Of a stretch of 40,663 bases of DNA, positions 405 through 25,554 are shown in pieces (positions within the stretch are counted from its first letter, which is position 1; every line of letters starts with the position of its first letter). The DNA lies in the NCBI GenBank assembly GCA_905235505.1, contig CAJOMJ010000024.1, positions 1 to 40,663 on the forward strand. The letters are read 5' to 3'. The stretch comes from Paludibacteraceae bacterium. GTDB taxonomy: Bacteria > Bacteroidota > Bacteroidia > Bacteroidales > Paludibacteraceae. The notes beneath the pieces are model-generated. The model ran no database searches. It was not told where the DNA came from and saw only the letters and a program-made list of their open reading frames with translations. The position numbers and the translations under genes were made by a program.

Positions 405-634
405 GCCTATGATAAAAAACGATTAAAAGGCAACATACATAAATAATAGCGTTTTAGCTCAAATACTTGGGTCTTGAAAACTGCACACTTTTGAGACTTA
501 ATACTTACCAAGGAACAAGCCAAAATGCTCACGTTGAAGCGTGGGCTTTGTTCGTATAGATTTGGTAAGTATAGGTAGTGCAGAAATCCTCAAGACCCGA
601 ATTGAAGCAACATAGCACCGCGCTATTTTATGTG
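405..634 (+). ncRNA. Candidate structured RNA element, copy A
   Basis: This gene-free stretch folds into nested helices: an outer stem 437-451/621-633 (imperfect), then 469-477/590-598 (9 bp perfect), 481-486/578-583 (6 bp), 501-510/563-572 (10 bp), 513-521/544-553 (one bulge) and an apical hairpin 530-533/540-543. A second copy with the same architecture lies at 25324-25554, but its three middle stems have different sequence with pairing kept. Shared unpaired or apical parts are GCTCACG, AGCGTGGGCTTT, ATAGATTTG and GAAGCA-CA-AG--CC. Homology starts at GCCTATGA (405). I do not recognise a named RNA family. The strand is uncertain because a hairpin folds either way; plus is chosen because the flanking 5-codon ORF is on plus. 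Confidence 0.65.
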
Positions 635-4782: not shown

Positions 4783-6192
4783 TTATTCTTGCTCTTTCCA
4801 ATCCGAGTTCTCTTTTATCAGTTCTACCAATCGCTCTACTGCCTCCTCCTGAGGTATATTCTTCACCACACATTCTTTGCCCTTGTACAGACTGACACGC
4901 CCTCTTCCCGCACCTACGTATCCGTAGTCTGCATCTGCCATCTCACCCGGACCGTTCACAATGCAACCCATGACTGCTATCTTCAAACCTTTGAGTCTCG
5001 ATGTCGCAGCCTTTACCTCGGCAATGGTCTTTTCTATGTCAAACAATGTTCTGCCGCACGACGGGCACGACACATATTCGGTCTTGTACCTTATCACTCC
5101 TGCCGCCTGAAGTATGTCTTTTGCAAGGGTTTGAAGCCTGTCCTCCCCAAAATGGGGGTTCTCTATCCTCAGTTGTTTTGCCCCCGTATCAAACAGCGGT
5201 TTGCCCAAGTCGGCTGACGCATGAATGCAGAAAGTCTCCCAACTGCAATCTTCCTCCGACTTGTACAGCAGAGAGCCGTCGTCAAGTTGATACAGTGATA
5301 CCTTTGCATTACCATTCTCAAACCGCCTTACTATCTCTTTCGCAACCGGTATTTCCGACTCGGGCGACTCCGAGAGAGACACTCTGACAGTATCGCCTAT
5401 TCCGTCTGCAAGCAGTGCACCTATACCCAATGCCGACTTTATTCTGCCGTCTTCACCCTCGCCTGCCTCTGTCACACCTAAATGCAAGGGAAAACACATG
5501 TTCTCTTTTTCCATCTGCCCTACCAGCATGCGAACCGTCTCCACCATTATCTTCGTCGTAGATGCCTTGATTGAAATCACCACATCGTTGAAGTTCTCCT
5601 CTTTGCATACCCGCAGAAACTCCATACAACTCTCCACCATACCGGCAGGCGTATCGCCGTATCTCGACATTATTCTGTCCGACAACGACCCGTGGTTCAC
5701 TCCTATTCTGAGTGCCGTATGGTGCTCTTTGCAGATGTCAAGCAGTCGTATGAACCTTTCTCTCAACCGCTTCAGTTCTGCCTCGTATTCCTCGTCCGTA
5801 TATTCCAGATGAATGAACTTCCTTGCAGGGTCAACGTAGTTGCCGGGGTTGATTCTCACCTTCTCCACCGTCTTCGCCGCCTCATCCGCTACATTGGCAT
5901 TGAAGTGAATATCAGCCACGAGAGGTATTGTAATACCCTCTCTGTGCAGCATCTCTGCCGTCTGACCCAGACTCTCCACCTCTCTTGTCCCTTGTGTAGT
6001 AAAACGCACAAGTTCGCCCCCCGCAGCGACTATTCTCTTCGCCTGCTCTACCGATGCCGCCACATCGTTGGTGTCGGTATTTGCCATACTCTGTATCCGT
6101 ATCGGATATTCCGAACCTATAAAAGTATTGCCTACGCGGGTTGTGCTCGTCTTGCGGCGCTTCTTTACACTAAGGTCTATTCTTCGCATCAT
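4783..6192 (-). CDS. ispG: 4-hydroxy-3-methylbut-2-en-1-yl diphosphate synthase
   Basis: IspG/GcpE converts 2-C-methyl-D-erythritol 2,4-cyclodiphosphate to HMBPP in the MEP isoprenoid pathway, using a [4Fe-4S] cluster. The N-terminal TIM barrel carries PIRIQSM (30-36), VADIHFN (92-98), KVRINPGN (111-118) and RIGVNHGSLS (162-171). The C-terminal cluster domain has C376-P-S-C379, C410 and E417 (NGPGE). Length is 469 residues, between the two-domain form (about 370) and the three-domain form usual in Bacteroidetes (about 600 or more). The segment between barrel and cluster domain, roughly 285-365, is therefore a strongly shortened insertion domain. Two adjacent ATGs (6192, 6189) are possible starts. 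Confidence in function is high. Confidence 0.95.
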   Translation of the reverse strand: MMRRIDLSVKKRRKTSTTRVGNTFIGSEYPIRIQSMANTDTNDVAASVEQAKRIVAAGGELVRFTTQGTREVESLGQTAEMLHREGITIPLVADIHFNANVADEAAKTVEKVRINPGNYVDPARKFIHLEYTDEEYEAELKRLRERFIRLLDICKEHHTALRIGVNHGSLSDRIMSRYGDTPAGMVESCMEFLRVCKEENFNDVVISIKASTTKIMVETVRMLVGQMEKENMCFPLHLGVTEAGEGEDGRIKSALGIGALLADGIGDTVRVSLSESPESEIPVAKEIVRRFENGNAKVSLYQLDDGSLLYKSEEDCSWETFCIHASADLGKPLFDTGAKQLRIENPHFGEDRLQTLAKDILQAAGVIRYKTEYVSCPSCGRTLFDIEKTIAEVKAATSRLKGLKIAVMGCIVNGPGEMADADYGYVGAGRGRVSLYKGKECVVKNIPQEEAVERLVELIKENSDWKEQE

Positions 6193-6347
6193 TCTGATAA
6201 TTGTTCTGAGAAAACCTGTTCACTGTCAGGCAACACCGTTTATGCAGCATACAGGGCAGTCGTCTGCCATTGCCATGCTTGGTTGCCATAATCGCAAATT
6301 GTTTGCAAAATTACTACTTTTATATAGAGTGCGCAAGGAAAATACAG

Positions 6348-6355
6348 TAACTTTG
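6348..6355 (+). promoter_or_regulatory. Promoter -7 element of the recombinase gene
   Basis: TAACTTTG lies 20 nt before the ATG at 6376, with TTTTATAT about 27 nt upstream as a weak -33 region. It predicts a leader of about 12-15 nt. Confidence 0.7.
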
Positions 6356-6375
6356 TAAAAAAACTATACTGCACC

Positions 6376-6969
6376 ATGATTTACGGTTATATCCGCGTAA
6401 GTTCCGACAAGCAGACTGTTGAGAACCAGCGGTACGAGATAATGAAGTTCTGCGAAAAAGAAGGCTGGATAGAAGAGACTATCTCCGGCACCAAAGACTA
6501 CGACAAGCGACAACTTGGCAATCTGCTGAAAATAGTGCAGAAAGATGACATAATTATATGCTCCGAGCTGTCACGCCTCGGCAGAAGTCTTTTTATGATT
6601 ATGGAGATTCTTAACATCTGCATGGGCAAAGAATGCAGAGTGTGGACCATCAAAGACAATTACCGGTTGGGAGATGACATACAGAGCAAAGTGCTGGCAT
6701 TTGCATTCGGCCTATCAGCGGAGATAGAGCGTAACCTCATCAGTCAGCGCACAAGAGAAGCGTTGGAGCGCAAGAAGTCCGAAGGTAAACCGTTGGGCCG
6801 GCCCAGAGGCAGAAAAACTGACAAATCAGCATACAAGCTGAACAAGAAGGAAGAATCTATCCGGCGGATGATGGAGAAAGGTATTAGCCTTCGTCAGATA
6901 AGTAAAAAACTGAAAGTGAGCAGAAACACAGTAAGGAGATATTACAGAAGTTTCCTGCAGAATCCCTGA
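6376..6969 (+). CDS. Serine recombinase, Mpi-like DNA invertase
   Basis: This 197-residue protein is a small serine recombinase (resolvase/invertase). The catalytic domain (1-140) has YIRVS with nucleophile Ser9, the SELSRLGRS segment (65-73) with catalytic arginines, and the long E-helix AEIERNLISQRTREAL. The C-terminus (about 165-192) is a helix-turn-helix, SLRQISKKLKVSRNTVRRYY. The opening MIYGYIRVSSDKQTVENQR is very close to the Bacteroides fragilis Mpi family, which inverts many promoters for surface polysaccharides. By analogy it may switch invertible promoters elsewhere in the genome; no such inverted repeats were found next to it. It stands alone with its own promoter. Mobile-element resolvase is the alternative role. 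Confidence 0.88.
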   Translation: MIYGYIRVSSDKQTVENQRYEIMKFCEKEGWIEETISGTKDYDKRQLGNLLKIVQKDDIIICSELSRLGRSLFMIMEILNICMGKECRVWTIKDNYRLGDDIQSKVLAFAFGLSAEIERNLISQRTREALERKKSEGKPLGRPRGRKTDKSAYKLNKKEESIRRMMEKGISLRQISKKLKVSRNTVRRYYRSFLQNP

Positions 6970-7097
6970 CTATGCCTTTGTATAATCACCCCGCAACCTT
7001 ATACTACAAACAATGCAACGCCTGCATCCTGACAATAATAAGAAGTAATACCTGATTCTACCAGGAGGCGACATTGAATACAGACTCCTTTCTAACA

Positions 7098-7132
7098 GCA
7101 ATGCCGCTGAACTCAGTGTTCATCGGCATTGC
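7098..7132 (-). terminator. Hairpin 3' of tRNA-Ser
   Basis: A 9-bp stem (GCAATGCCG, 7098-7106, with CGGCATTGC, 7124-7132) encloses an inner TGAAC/GTTCA stem. It begins at the tRNA 3' end and lacks a clear U-run, so it may be a processing or termination hairpin. Confidence 0.55.
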
Positions 7133-7218
7133 GGAAGGAGGGGGATTCGAACCCCCGGTACCCTTACGAGTACGTCAGTTTAGCAAACTGGTGGTTTCAG
7201 CCACTCACCCATCCTTCC
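7132..7218 (-). tRNA. tRNA-Ser(GCT)
   Basis: On the minus strand an 87-nt class II tRNA folds fully: acceptor GGAAGGA pairs with TCCTTCC, discriminator G; the anticodon stem-loop CAGTTTGCTAAACTG gives anticodon GCT (codons AGC/AGT). A long variable arm is present (GTACTCGTAAGGGTAC), as expected for serine, followed by the T-arm GGGGGTTCGAATCCCCC. The 3' CCA is not encoded. tRNA-Ser genes are frequent integration targets, but no integrase or repeated att segment is seen here. Confidence 0.97.
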
Positions 7219-7427
7219 TGTCAGGCGTGTTGCCAAACTGCTTTCTTACAAAAGCGGCTGCAAAAGTAGTACTTTTATTTTGATTGTGCAAGAGAGAACT
7301 GAAAATAATTGCATATTTCGCTAAAAAAACACGTGCAACAGCCCGAACATTCCCCCTATATAAACGCCACACTGCATATTCACTTGCGAAAATTTCGCTG
7401 TCTCTATGAAATTCCGGAAAAAAGTAT

Positions 7428-7435
7428 TACCTTTG
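7428..7435 (+). promoter_or_regulatory. mltG promoter -7 element
   Basis: TACCTTTG is followed by CAGTCTGTT and then ATG at 7445. Because it lies inside the longest open frame, it argues that the start at 7445 is correct and that the mRNA is almost leaderless. Confidence 0.7.
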
Positions 7436-7444
7436 CAGTCTGTT

Positions 7445-8470
7445 ATGAAGAAGATATTTCTAATCGTTTTTTCTGTTCTGTGCCTTGCTGCAGTAGCTGT
7501 CGGCATAGAGCAGTATTACCGGATGTTTGTATGCAATATCACTGCAAACGACGGAGATACGCATTTGTTATATGTATATCCTGATGCCTCGTTGGATAGC
7601 GTAATTGATGTTATTGCACAGACGCATGATATCGCTTCGCCATGGAATCTGCGCTTCCACTGCCGCCTCATGAAGTTCACCGCCCCGAAAGTAGGGTGCT
7701 ATATGCTCAATCAGAAAGAAGGCGATGTCGCACTCATAAGACGGCTGCGCGGCGGGGAACAGACTCCTGTCGAAGTCACTTTCAATCGTATCCGCACCCG
7801 CAGCCAACTCGCCAAACGTCTCTCGGAACAGCTGTTGATGGACTCTGCCGAAGTCGCACAGAGGCTCGAAAGCAATGAGTACATGTCTCAGTTCGGCTTA
7901 AAGCGCGAAACAGCAGTATGTCTCTTTATCCCTGACACTTACCAACTCTATTGGACCATATCTCCCGACGCTTTGTTCCAAAGAATGGAGAAAGAATACA
8001 AGCATTTCTGGACAGACGAGAGAGACAGAAAAGCCAAGAAGATAGGTCTTACCCGAGATGGCGTCGCCACCATCGCAAGCATTGCGGAAGAGGAGACCAA
8101 CAAAGATTTCGAATATCCCATCATAGCAGGTCTGTATCTCAATCGCCTTAACAAAGGTATGCCACTACAGGCATGCCCTACAATAAAATTCGCATGGCAG
8201 GATTTCTCTCTCAGGCGTATTCTCAACAGGCACCTTGAGATAGACTCGCCATACAACACCTATAAGAACGCAGGGCTCCCGCCCGGACCTATACGTATTC
8301 CCCGAGCCTCTACAATGGATGCCGTACTCAACTACACACCCAGCGACTACCTCTTTATGTGTGCCTCTGCCGATTTCAATGGCACTCACCATTTCTCCTC
8401 CACTTATGCCGAACATGCCCGATATGCCAAAGAATATCAGGCCGAGCTCAACAGGCGCAATATAAAATAA
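7445..8470 (+). CDS. mltG: Endolytic murein transglycosylase MltG
   Basis: MltG (YceG-like) is an inner-membrane lytic transglycosylase that cleaves nascent peptidoglycan strands. Started at 7445 the protein is 341 residues; an ATG at 7406 is in frame but lies upstream of the promoter. A single membrane anchor is at residues about 3-22 (IFLIVFSVLCLAAVAVGI), followed by a LysM-like region. The catalytic stretch ASIAEEETNKDF (about 211-222) carries the conserved Glu, and the downstream signature is NRLNKGMPLQACPT, then YNTYKNAGLPPGPI, SPYNTY and THHFSSTYAEH. It opens a plus-strand run with prmA, mnmE and yicC; prmA starts 12 nt later. Confidence 0.93.
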   Translation: MKKIFLIVFSVLCLAAVAVGIEQYYRMFVCNITANDGDTHLLYVYPDASLDSVIDVIAQTHDIASPWNLRFHCRLMKFTAPKVGCYMLNQKEGDVALIRRLRGGEQTPVEVTFNRIRTRSQLAKRLSEQLLMDSAEVAQRLESNEYMSQFGLKRETAVCLFIPDTYQLYWTISPDALFQRMEKEYKHFWTDERDRKAKKIGLTRDGVATIASIAEEETNKDFEYPIIAGLYLNRLNKGMPLQACPTIKFAWQDFSLRRILNRHLEIDSPYNTYKNAGLPPGPIRIPRASTMDAVLNYTPSDYLFMCASADFNGTHHFSSTYAEHARYAKEYQAELNRRNIK

Positions 8471-16649: not shown

Positions 16650-17830
16650 TGCTCAAGGGCAAACACATATTGGTAGGTATAAGTGGCGGTATTGCCGCAT
16701 ACAAGATTCCCGAACTTATTCGTCTTCTAAAGAAAGAAGAAGCGGAAGTGTGTGTGTGCACTACCCGGAATGCACTGCAGTTTGTCACCCCGCTTACTCT
16801 CGAAACTCTGAGTAATAATCAGGTCTATTCCGATGTATTTGCCCCACACAATAATCATCAGACAGAACATATCTCCCTACCCGACTGGGCAGACCTGATG
16901 ATAATAGCACCATGCACTGCCAACGTAATCGGCAAGATGGCGGCAGGCATAGCTGACGATGCCCTCACCACCACTTTCCTCGCTATGACAAAACCAGTGT
17001 TGGTGGCTCCCGCTATGAACGACAAGATGCTTGCACACCCTGCTGTACAACGCAATCTGCAGACTATCGCCGGTTATCACAACGTCACTGTGCTTGACTG
17101 CGACAGCGGGTTCCTCGCTTGTGGCACAACAGGCAAAGGGCGTATGCAGGAACCTGAAGACATACTCCTCGCTGCGGACATCCTGCTTGAGGAGAAAACT
17201 CTCTCCGGCAAGCGTGTACTTATTACCGCAGGACCTACTCAAGAGAAGATTGACCCTGTTAGATACATATCTAACTACTCCTCAGGCAAGATGGGTTATG
17301 CCCTCGCTTATGCCTGTCTCAAACGTGGAGCAGATGTTACTCTCGTCAGCGGACCAAGCAACGAACATTTTATCGGCAAAACTGTCAATGTAACCTCTGC
17401 CGAAGATATGCGCCGGGCATGCCTCGAACTATTCCCCGAAACCGACATAGCAATTCTTTGTGCCGCTGTTGCCGACTTCAAACCTGATTATATCTCAGAA
17501 CAGAAGATAAAACGACACTCGGAAGACTTAACCCTCACCCTTAAACCGACTCACGATATCGCAGCCGAGTTAGGGCAGATAAAGACTGAAAGACAATTGC
17601 TCGTAGGCTTCGCTCTTGAAACAAACAACGAGGAAGAAAATGCCGTCAATAAGATGAAGAAGAAGAATCTTGACTTTATTGTTCTCAACTCCACTCAGGA
17701 CAAAGGCGCAGGCTTCGGTTGTGACACCAACAAAGTAACTGTCTTCTCGCAGTTGGGAAGCAAACATACCTTACCTCTCGCTTCCAAACATGAGATTGCA
17801 GACTCGATAGTTGACATTATCTCACACTGA
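16649..17830 (+). CDS. coaBC: Phosphopantothenoylcysteine decarboxylase / phosphopantothenate--cysteine ligase
   Basis: This bifunctional Dfp protein catalyses two successive steps of coenzyme A synthesis. It is 393 residues. The N-terminal flavoprotein CoaC domain has GISGGIAAYK (8-17), the catalytic His in EHISLPDWAD, NVIGKMAAGIADD, PAMNDKM and the active-site cysteine in GFLACGTTGKGRM (about 153-165). The CoaB domain begins about residue 188 with VLITAGPTQEKIDPVRYISNYSSGKMG, then AAVADF and KIKR (about 280-290). All key motifs are present. It is the last gene of its run, followed by a strong terminator hairpin. Confidence 0.96.
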   Translation: MLKGKHILVGISGGIAAYKIPELIRLLKKEEAEVCVCTTRNALQFVTPLTLETLSNNQVYSDVFAPHNNHQTEHISLPDWADLMIIAPCTANVIGKMAAGIADDALTTTFLAMTKPVLVAPAMNDKMLAHPAVQRNLQTIAGYHNVTVLDCDSGFLACGTTGKGRMQEPEDILLAADILLEEKTLSGKRVLITAGPTQEKIDPVRYISNYSSGKMGYALAYACLKRGADVTLVSGPSNEHFIGKTVNVTSAEDMRRACLELFPETDIAILCAAVADFKPDYISEQKIKRHSEDLTLTLKPTHDIAAELGQIKTERQLLVGFALETNNEEENAVNKMKKKNLDFIVLNSTQDKGAGFGCDTNKVTVFSQLGSKHTLPLASKHEIADSIVDIISH

Positions 17831-25323: not shown

Positions 25324-25554
25324 GCCTATGAAAAAAACAAGATAACTACAATACATATAACACCATGCGTTATAAGCCTACACTTGAGTTTTGAAATCTC
25401 GACAGTTTCATTACTACATCTAAGTTATCAAGCAAAAGCCTATAGACGCTCACGCCTTTAGCGTGGGCTTTTGTGCAATAGATTTGATAACTTAGGATAG
25501 TCGAGAACCTCAAAACTCAAATGGAAGCATCAAAGTGCCACGCTTGTTTTATGT
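25324..25554 (+). ncRNA. Candidate structured RNA element, copy B
   Basis: It has the same architecture as 405-634. Helices: outer 25453-independent stem 25353-25357/25550-25554 with 25359-25362/25545-25548 and 25367-25370/25540-25543; 25384-25394/25510-25520 (11 bp perfect); 25398-25403/25500-25505 (6 bp); 25420-25430/25485-25495 (11 bp); 25433-25440/25466-25473 (8 bp); apical 25451-25455/25461-25465. Stem sequences differ from copy A but pairing is complete. Conserved parts: GCCTATGA at the 5' edge, GCTCACG, AGCGTGGGCTTT, ATAGATTTG, GAAGCA. Total length 231 nt against 230 in copy A. It ends 36 nt before the XRE gene. Strand as for copy A is unproven. Confidence 0.68.

Follow-up and report, generated by a model that had tools for sequence, protein, structure and literature searches.

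A structured element present in two copies on a Paludibacteraceae contig is best explained, with a probability of about 0.72, as a cis-acting two-state 5' leader RNA belonging to a family spread through the Bacteroidota, as judged from sequence comparison and computed folding. These approaches support the structure, both sets of pairings, a very short upstream open reading frame (mini-ORF), a promoter motif, and the position before genes. Leaders with two mutually exclusive folds standing before genes for mostly exported-looking products suggest a widespread gene switch.

Two copies of the element and their parts

The window, the whole 40,663-nucleotide stretch of DNA that was analyzed, contains two copies of one structured element, copy A at 405-634 and copy B at 25324-25554. 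The helices follow in the same order in both, and the folding energy of each copy was better than that of all 200 of its 200 dinucleotide shuffles (z-scores of -5.0 and -6.1, respectively). The parts are given below, where R1 denotes a covariance model of 187 positions and 41 pairs, trained on 36 loci that include copies A and B.

409-426, + strand: mini-ORF of copy A, ATG ATA AAA AAC GAT TAA (MIKND, stop), within a conserved CGCCTATGA motif
444-628, + strand: core of copy A, R1 score 160.9 bits
448-452, + strand: closing-helix strand a of copy A, pairing with a' at 620-624; conserved, little covariation
451-458, + strand: 5' strand of P0alt of copy A, an alternative helix, predicted partner 519-526 in the nascent fold
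466-480, + strand: 5' strand of H1 of copy A (CTTGGGTCTTGAAAA), predicted to pair with 590-600 in the full fold and with 489-497 and 508-512 in the nascent fold
481-486, + strand: 5' strand of H2 of copy A, partner 578-583; in the loop of the nascent hairpin
489-497, + strand: INT segment of copy A, the competitor strand, predicted partner 471-480 in the nascent fold
501-511, + strand: 5' strand of H3 of copy A, partner about 561-572
527-546, + strand: apex hairpin of copy A, GCTCACG..AGCGTGGGC, in both folds; U-G wobble mostly conserved
561-600, + strand: 3' strands of H3, H2, and H1 of copy A (about 561-572, 578-583, and 590-600)
614-619, + strand: putative pseudoknot strand b of copy A (AGCACC), partner 659-664; equalled by 2.2% of swapped partners
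620-630, + strand: strand a' of copy A (620-624), then a T-rich stretch
659-664, + strand: putative pseudoknot strand b' of copy A (GGTGCT), partner 614-619
666-701, + strand: DUF805b RNA (RF02914), a known cis-regulatory motif, 40.6 bits against a gathering score of 35.6; separate, in tandem
719-988, + strand: first gene 3' of copy A, 89 amino acids, no Pfam match and no signal-like N terminus
25328-25345, + strand: mini-ORF of copy B, ATG AAA AAA ACA AGA TAA (MKKTR, stop)
25362-25548, + strand: core of copy B, R1 score 138.6 bits
25591-25800, + strand: gene 3' of copy B, 69 amino acids, no Pfam match and no signal-like N terminus

The functional unit of copy A is probably larger than 405-634, because the mini-ORF lies at the 5' end (ATG at 409), a pseudoknot strand at the 3' end (659-664), and DUF805b at 666-701. 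Elsewhere the window holds a 96-amino-acid remnant of a DDE transposase (1807-2097; PF01609, 23.6 bits, cutoff 23) and a serine resolvase gene (6376-6969; PF00239) that adjoins a tRNA-Ser gene (7131-7218), as at the edge of an integrated element.

Covariation across the family

On the 41 pairs of R1, copies A and B differ on both sides at 6 and on one side at 5, are unchanged at 28, and at the remaining 2 are unpaired in one copy or both. The first-pass annotation had taken these copies as evidence of compensatory change over about 27 bp; selection for a structure with the same helices held up, but the extent of change was overstated for A against B alone. Strong evidence from covariation is provided by the family and not by the two window copies alone. 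In a set of 101 R1 matches, training loci among them (A6), 91.0% of cells pair, compared with 74.5% after shuffling, and 697 cells are changed on both sides, compared with 207; none of 500 shuffles reached as high, and sliding the partners by one column lowered pairing to 40 to 45%. A set of 67 matches (A7), 4 of whose sequences are also present in A6, gave 95.2% pairing against 75.8% and 492 both-sided changes against 145 in shuffles. The folding of the copies relative to shuffles and the covariation in both sets bear out the proposal that this is a selected structure and a single family.

Covariation is carried by helices H1, H2, and H3; there is hardly any variation in the closing helix a:a' or the apex. 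The invariance of the apex in A6 is due in part to ascertainment, since an apex pattern was used to find most loci of that set. The A7 loci came mainly from model searches, and there the apex is more variable, with U-G in 47 of 66 rows at one pair. Because alignments are fitted to R1, a swap test was added in which the pairing energy of each strand with its own partner was compared to that with partners from other loci. It used 82 loci, the 101 of A6 minus those removed by an 85% identity filter and very gappy rows. The own partner was better at 82 of 82 loci for H1, 81 of 82 for H2, and 80 of 82 for H3. The corresponding figures for a:a' (54 of 81) and a further helix, P1b (42 of 82), amount to little or no covariation.

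A predicted competing fold of the 5' half

The segment between the 5' strands of H2 and H3, designated INT, has the same sense as the H1 3' strand and pairs with the H1 5' strand; CTTGG pairs with CCAAG, which H3 also needs. For INT together with the CCAAG region, the own pairing beat swapped partners in 74 of 82 loci; restricting the swaps to the ten nearest relatives gave 68 of 82. INT alone gave 58 of 82 in both comparisons, and CTTGG:CCAAG alone gave 71 of 82 against swapped partners and just 47 of 82 against near relatives; controls for these tests gave 36 to 40 of 82. In a further helix of the nascent fold, P0alt, the sequence that follows strand a pairs with the bases immediately preceding the apex; the own partner was better in 70 of 82 loci against swapped partners and in 58 of 82 against nearest relatives (controls, 30 to 42).

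When computed folding was limited to the sequence through the apex hairpin, as early in transcription, the alternative helix reached 6 bp or more in 79 of 82 loci, and its mean length was 12.5 bp with the own INT compared to 6.6 bp with a swapped one, the own INT being better in 80 of 82. When the full element was folded, the alternative helix remained in 3 of 82 loci and H1 formed in 78 of 82. In these models, the nascent and full folds exclude each other. The 5' half can thus be described as having a selected fold of its own that the 3' half is predicted to dismantle strand by strand. Two competing folds, one of the marks of a ribosome-mediated attenuator, are present in the computed structures.

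Promoter motif and mini-ORF

Tests of promoter, mini-ORF, pseudoknot, downstream ORF, and T-run were done with 137 loci, obtained from 168 matches (4 repeated sequences and one wrong-strand palindrome match, L202, included) by removing those with less than 90 nt downstream and those more than 90% alike. Of 136 loci, 85 have the motif TAnnTTTG in the 150 nt upstream, compared with 9.0 in single-base shuffles, and 71 of 91 sites lie 40 to 99 nt before the core. A passage in PMC9723704 names this motif, for flavobacteria, as the -7 box of the main sigma factor. The exact motif is absent within 150 nt upstream of copies A and B. At one locus (L174, upstream of position 935), a tRNA-like sequence was seen by eye between the promoter motif and the element.

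A second upstream motif, TGCCTATG or a close form of it, is found in 73 of 137 loci, compared with 5.0 in shuffled sequence, and its ATG lies 29 to 53 nt before the core in 68 of the 73; the strict motif is absent from the other 64. The frame opened by this ATG reaches a stop within 6 codons in 70 of the 73 motif-bearing loci, giving a mini-ORF of 0 to 6 codons, as against 19 and 31 in the other frames. The stop is TAA in 61 loci, and in 6 of the 73 it follows the ATG at once. Short frames were also seen independently of the motif, among 78 loci having the promoter motif 25 to 125 nt upstream. Nineteen of these lack an ATG before the core; in the other 59, the first ATG opens a frame that ends within 6 codons in 49, compared with 25.9 +/- 3.8 when tails were shuffled, and is longer in 10. 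The stop codon of six loci lies in a hairpin loop, with the last codons forming the hairpin arm; a seventh candidate, L050, is a direct ATG-stop and hence not a real case. A short ORF upstream of the switch, also a mark of ribosome-mediated attenuators, therefore appears to be present in part of the loci.

The 3' end

Strand b, just before a', paired better with its own downstream b' than with swapped partners in 91 of 137 loci, compared with 69 of 136 for an upstream control, and with b defined more loosely the figure was 94 of 148. The start of b' lies 19 to 35 nt past the core in 35 of the 39 strongest loci. Together, b:b' and a:a' would make an H-type pseudoknot before the gene in many copies. 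Copy A has b' (AGCACC with GGTGCT), and copy B lacks it. Behind the CG of a', 130 of 137 loci have a T-rich stretch with at least 6 T residues in 8 nt. The local hairpin before this T-run was no better in energy than shuffled sequence (72 of 137), and the swap test gave weak support for a local terminator stem (55 of 81; p 2e-4).

The DUF805b RNA begins 38 nt beyond the end of copy A's core. It was considered as a 3' part of the same RNA and rejected, since it mostly occurs apart from the element: it is above its cutoff in 54 of 119 sampled genomes of the order, and R1 matches at E up to 1 accompany only 3 of the 30 top DUF805b loci, two of them adjoining (E 2.7e-7 and 0.078) and the third about 0.9 kb off. 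In the element's own genome, DUF805b stands behind it at two places by model (contigs C24 and C41) and behind one degenerate copy by eye (C26). Another locus (L253; G142:C104, about 6134-8212) has four DUF805b copies in 2.1 kb, each shortly before a small gene; these genes open with MRKLKLSLKKEIISDLEA or slight variants of it (frame judged by eye), continue to a GG motif, and resemble double-glycine leader peptides.

Downstream genes and copying of the leader

In 97 of 101 loci the element and the nearest ORF downstream share a strand, and the nearest ORF upstream does so in 74 of 106. Both counts take in some loci that lack the element, among them L035, L078, L094, and L114. A search of the same strand gave a downstream ORF for all except 6 of the 137 loci, and the start codon of that gene lies 35 to 110 nt on in 109 of 131. 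By crude regular expressions, which are not equivalent to SignalP, 101 of the 131 ORFs have a signal-peptide-like start and 51 a lipobox-like motif. Nearly the same regular-expression rule found signal-like starts in 54 of 72 downstream ORFs; among the other ORFs in these loci that are 150 amino acids or longer it found them in 114 of 326, which gives an odds ratio of 5.6. The downstream products are diverse, with 89 Pfam families matched over 114 proteins from the 131 ORFs. Among the 25 of these 89 families that were listed, the commonest was BspA-type repeats, with 6, and no shared pathway was visible.

A single BLAST match spans the element in 1546 locus pairs. Similarity ends 0 to 19 nt past the core in 1086 of them and starts at -60 to +19 in 1387, a pattern that conservation of the element alone could produce. 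Closer pairs are more telling. There are 61 pairs at least 85% alike, a set in which four loci occur twice, and 50 of these have an ORF behind both leaders. The ORFs are non-homologous in 43 of the 50 (blastp E 1e-3), and in 31 of those 43 the similarity stops at -5 to +19 of the element's 3' edge. One such pair, L017 and L159, is 92% alike over 202 nt before non-homologous genes. Because near-identical leaders precede non-homologous genes, with similarity ending at the edge of the element, we conclude that the leader is copied as a module.

Retention with a gene was seen as well. One lipoprotein, chosen for a leader already known, has it at 12 of 12 genus homologues (11 by model at E 6.5e-4 or better and 1 by eye, the latter cut by a contig end), a count that includes the query's own locus and one identical pair; an empty site was not found, as all of these homologues have the leader. 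For the gene behind copy B, 6 of 14 genus matches, its own included, have an R1 match just upstream, 4 of them strong and 2 weak (E 0.25 and 0.35), with the two closest matches among the strong; the other 8 have no leader match at E up to 1. The 89-amino-acid gene after copy A has no match besides itself in 91 genus genomes.

Distribution and relation to known RNAs

The genome that contains the window has 11 R1 places at E up to 1, 8 strong (1.3e-7 or better) and 3 weak. Mutual identity among ten of its copies is 42 to 70%, so these are old relatives and not the result of a recent burst. Within the genus, 58 of 61 sampled genomes (own included) have R1 matches, with 1 to 19 per genome having any. 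Across the order, matches were found in at least 77 of 247 genomes at E 1e-3, and across a phylum sample in at least 11 of 296 at E 1e-4, own included, all within the same class; both prevalences are lower bounds, with few candidates scored per genome (10 and 8, respectively). A class sample gave matches in 8 of 40 genomes at E 1e-3, including the known centre G318 and G327. The copies of the own genome and those in the genus and order samples are mostly dispersed. Contigs of four genomes (G040, G130, G207, and G234) end only a few hundred bases from several of the copies, perhaps because the surrounding sequence differs between strains.

Thirteen loci of the phylum sample lie outside the order. 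By eye, the arms and the apex are preserved in the twelve that were inspected. Several of the twelve also show b:b', and in some of them 205 to 317 nt separate the apex start from the next long ORF. A match in a record titled Flavobacteriaceae (L046; E 1.1e-9) extends the family to the Flavobacteria. Nine genomes titled as other groups, reached through apex look-alikes, gave no R1 match, an empty answer that is weak evidence by itself. The apex pattern alone, with one genome per species, was found in at least 116 stretches, and those listed are mainly from metagenome-assembled genomes titled Paludibacteraceae, Prevotellaceae, Bacteroidaceae, Bacteroidales, and relatives. Viral origin was considered and dropped, with 3 viral contigs having the apex pattern and none passing the arm filter, as was carriage of a close relative of copy A by plasmid or phage, for which there was no blastn match. 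Degenerate copies with other apex sequences were seen at three loci (L258 at G000:C26, about 17000-17296; L286; and L290). The family is probably larger than R1 shows, because R1 misses or barely finds such copies.

The core matched no Rfam 15 family at the gathering threshold in the window and 59 loci, and permissive scans gave core hits only far below gathering scores. Two earlier expectations are sustained: a covariance-model search of genomes returned many matches in the Bacteroidales with strong covariation and the predicted apex, and the family that could not be recognized from the window has no named Rfam counterpart in the window or the loci scanned. No prior description was found in the limited set of open-access papers searched, and an entry in a published motif list is possible. 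The element apparently represents a large, unnamed family of leader RNAs. A fluoride riboswitch (RF01734) was seen about 2 kb from one element copy (L222, 3005-3067).

Known systems share individual features with the element. The tetQ leader of the Bacteroides element CTnDOT, which we take to have a 3-amino-acid leader peptide and competing RNA folds, would resemble it in the very short leader ORF and the competing folds and comes from the same phylum. It responds to tetracycline, whereas the genes behind the element are diverse and the ORF has 0 to 6 codons of variable sequence, and the likeness is one of description. By this analogy, the tetQ attenuator may be the nearest working precedent in the phylum known to us. 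A passage in PMC5418344 describes tetQ as a translation attenuator in Bacteroides. DUF805b is likewise a cis-regulatory leader motif of Bacteroidales, found behind copy A, but it is a 35-nt motif that mostly occurs alone, and its model has no match within the R1 core, the match at 666-701 lying outside. In eukaryotic start-stop upstream ORFs, an ATG is followed at once by a stop. The 6 of 73 motif-bearing loci with ATG-stop share this arrangement, in a bacterial element without homology to those ORFs and coupled to a large RNA fold. Reverse transcriptase, the mark of a retron, was not found among the four window genes scanned beside the copies. The element is also similar to Flavo-1 RNA (RF01705) in being multicopy, structured, and from Bacteroidota, and Flavo-1 had no gathering-score match in L046 or L264 to L278 and none in a permissive scan of L265. 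A passage in PMC9723704 describes Flavo-1 as a multicopy structured RNA of Bacteroidota of unclear function.

A proposed two-state leader and its alternatives

In the proposed leader, the order from 5' to 3' would begin with the promoter, followed mostly by 11 to 48 nt, the mini-ORF of 0 to 6 codons in many copies, and the closing strand. The 5' half would then form the nascent hairpin (P0alt, CTTGG:CCAAG, and H1-5':INT) during transcription, along with the apex hairpin, and the strands of H3, H2, and H1 in the 3' half would take over the partners of that first hairpin. The second closing strand with the T-run, b' of the H-type pseudoknot in many copies, and the start codon would complete the leader. 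We consider it fairly probable that the exchange from nascent to full fold occurs in the cell and sets expression of the gene. A translation-sensing leader would fit the mini-ORF best. We suggest only tentatively that the leader acts through translation start or mRNA stability and not through intrinsic termination; attenuation by termination is still to be reckoned with, because the swap test weakly supports a terminator stem. More tentatively again, a ribosome at the mini-ORF might reach near the closing strand and so decide whether the closing helix and pseudoknot form, by which the leader would report initiation or termination at the mini-ORF.

Several observations run against a two-state leader. 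TAnnTTTG is absent within 150 nt upstream of both window copies, the genes behind them lack a signal-like start, the strict mini-ORF motif is missing in 64 of 137 loci, and copy B has no b'. Little or no covariation is seen in a:a' and P1b, no leader match up to E 1 accompanies 8 of the 14 matches to the copy B gene in the genus, and the alternative pairings could serve orderly folding and not switching. That last point leads to an unlikely, though not negligible, alternative, a 5' leader without regulation whose large arm shields the mRNA or holds the start region open, with the nascent hairpin merely guiding folding. The diversity of the genes, 89 Pfam families over 114 proteins, makes a single metabolite signal hard to imagine and is in keeping with such a stabilizer, as is the lack of a clear expression platform among our findings, but a conserved mini-ORF and a competing second fold exceed its needs. 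The same diversity, with no visible shared pathway among the 25 of 89 families listed, weighs on a metabolite riboswitch with the apex and a conserved GGT..ACC region as the binding core. We regard this as quite improbable: near-invariant positions around the apex (partly ascertainment), a complex fold with a pseudoknot, and two computed states would suit a riboswitch, but the helix sequences drift freely and the element has a mini-ORF, which is not typical of riboswitches.

The two remaining readings detach the element from the gene behind it. The first-pass annotation had raised a folded-DNA recombination target, and an attC-like or MITE-like mobile DNA element without RNA function is, in our estimation, slightly more doubtful than a riboswitch. 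The 1086 of 1546 pairs with similarity ending 0 to 19 nt after the element could be given by conservation alone; stronger are the 43 of 50 close pairs with non-homologous ORFs, 31 ending at the edge, with L017 and L159 among the examples, and the element is an imperfect palindrome, such that one copy (C7) was first matched on the wrong strand. The close pairs keep that proposal alive, but a gene orientation of 97:4, the promoter motif, the mini-ORF, retention with one lipoprotein, and a second fold that covaries within the 5' half weaken it, and no empty site was found or aligned. The other proposal, a new class of free-standing regulatory RNA, is probably wrong and is the least credible of these readings, with very little likelihood in our view. 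The promoter motif that precedes many loci and the T-run that ends the element would suit a free RNA, yet the next ORF has the same orientation in 97 of 101 loci and its ATG is 35 to 110 nt on in 109 of 131, the leader stays with the orthologues of one lipoprotein, and there is no strong terminator hairpin.

Implications

If the two-state leader is right, this is a large unnamed family of cis-regulatory RNAs in gut and environmental Bacteroidota, in which an ORF as small as a bare start and stop is combined with a two-state RNA that covaries. Such a family would open a way into the control of lipoproteins and secreted proteins in these bacteria and a natural system in which to watch RNA strand exchange during transcription. 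A bolder version, which we think rather unlikely, is a phylum-wide self-spreading module in which a ribosome-read, start-stop-like mini-ORF and a strand-exchange switch are copied between promoters and unrelated genes for exported proteins. Were that true, part of the envelope proteome would be coupled in the cell to the status of translation initiation or termination.
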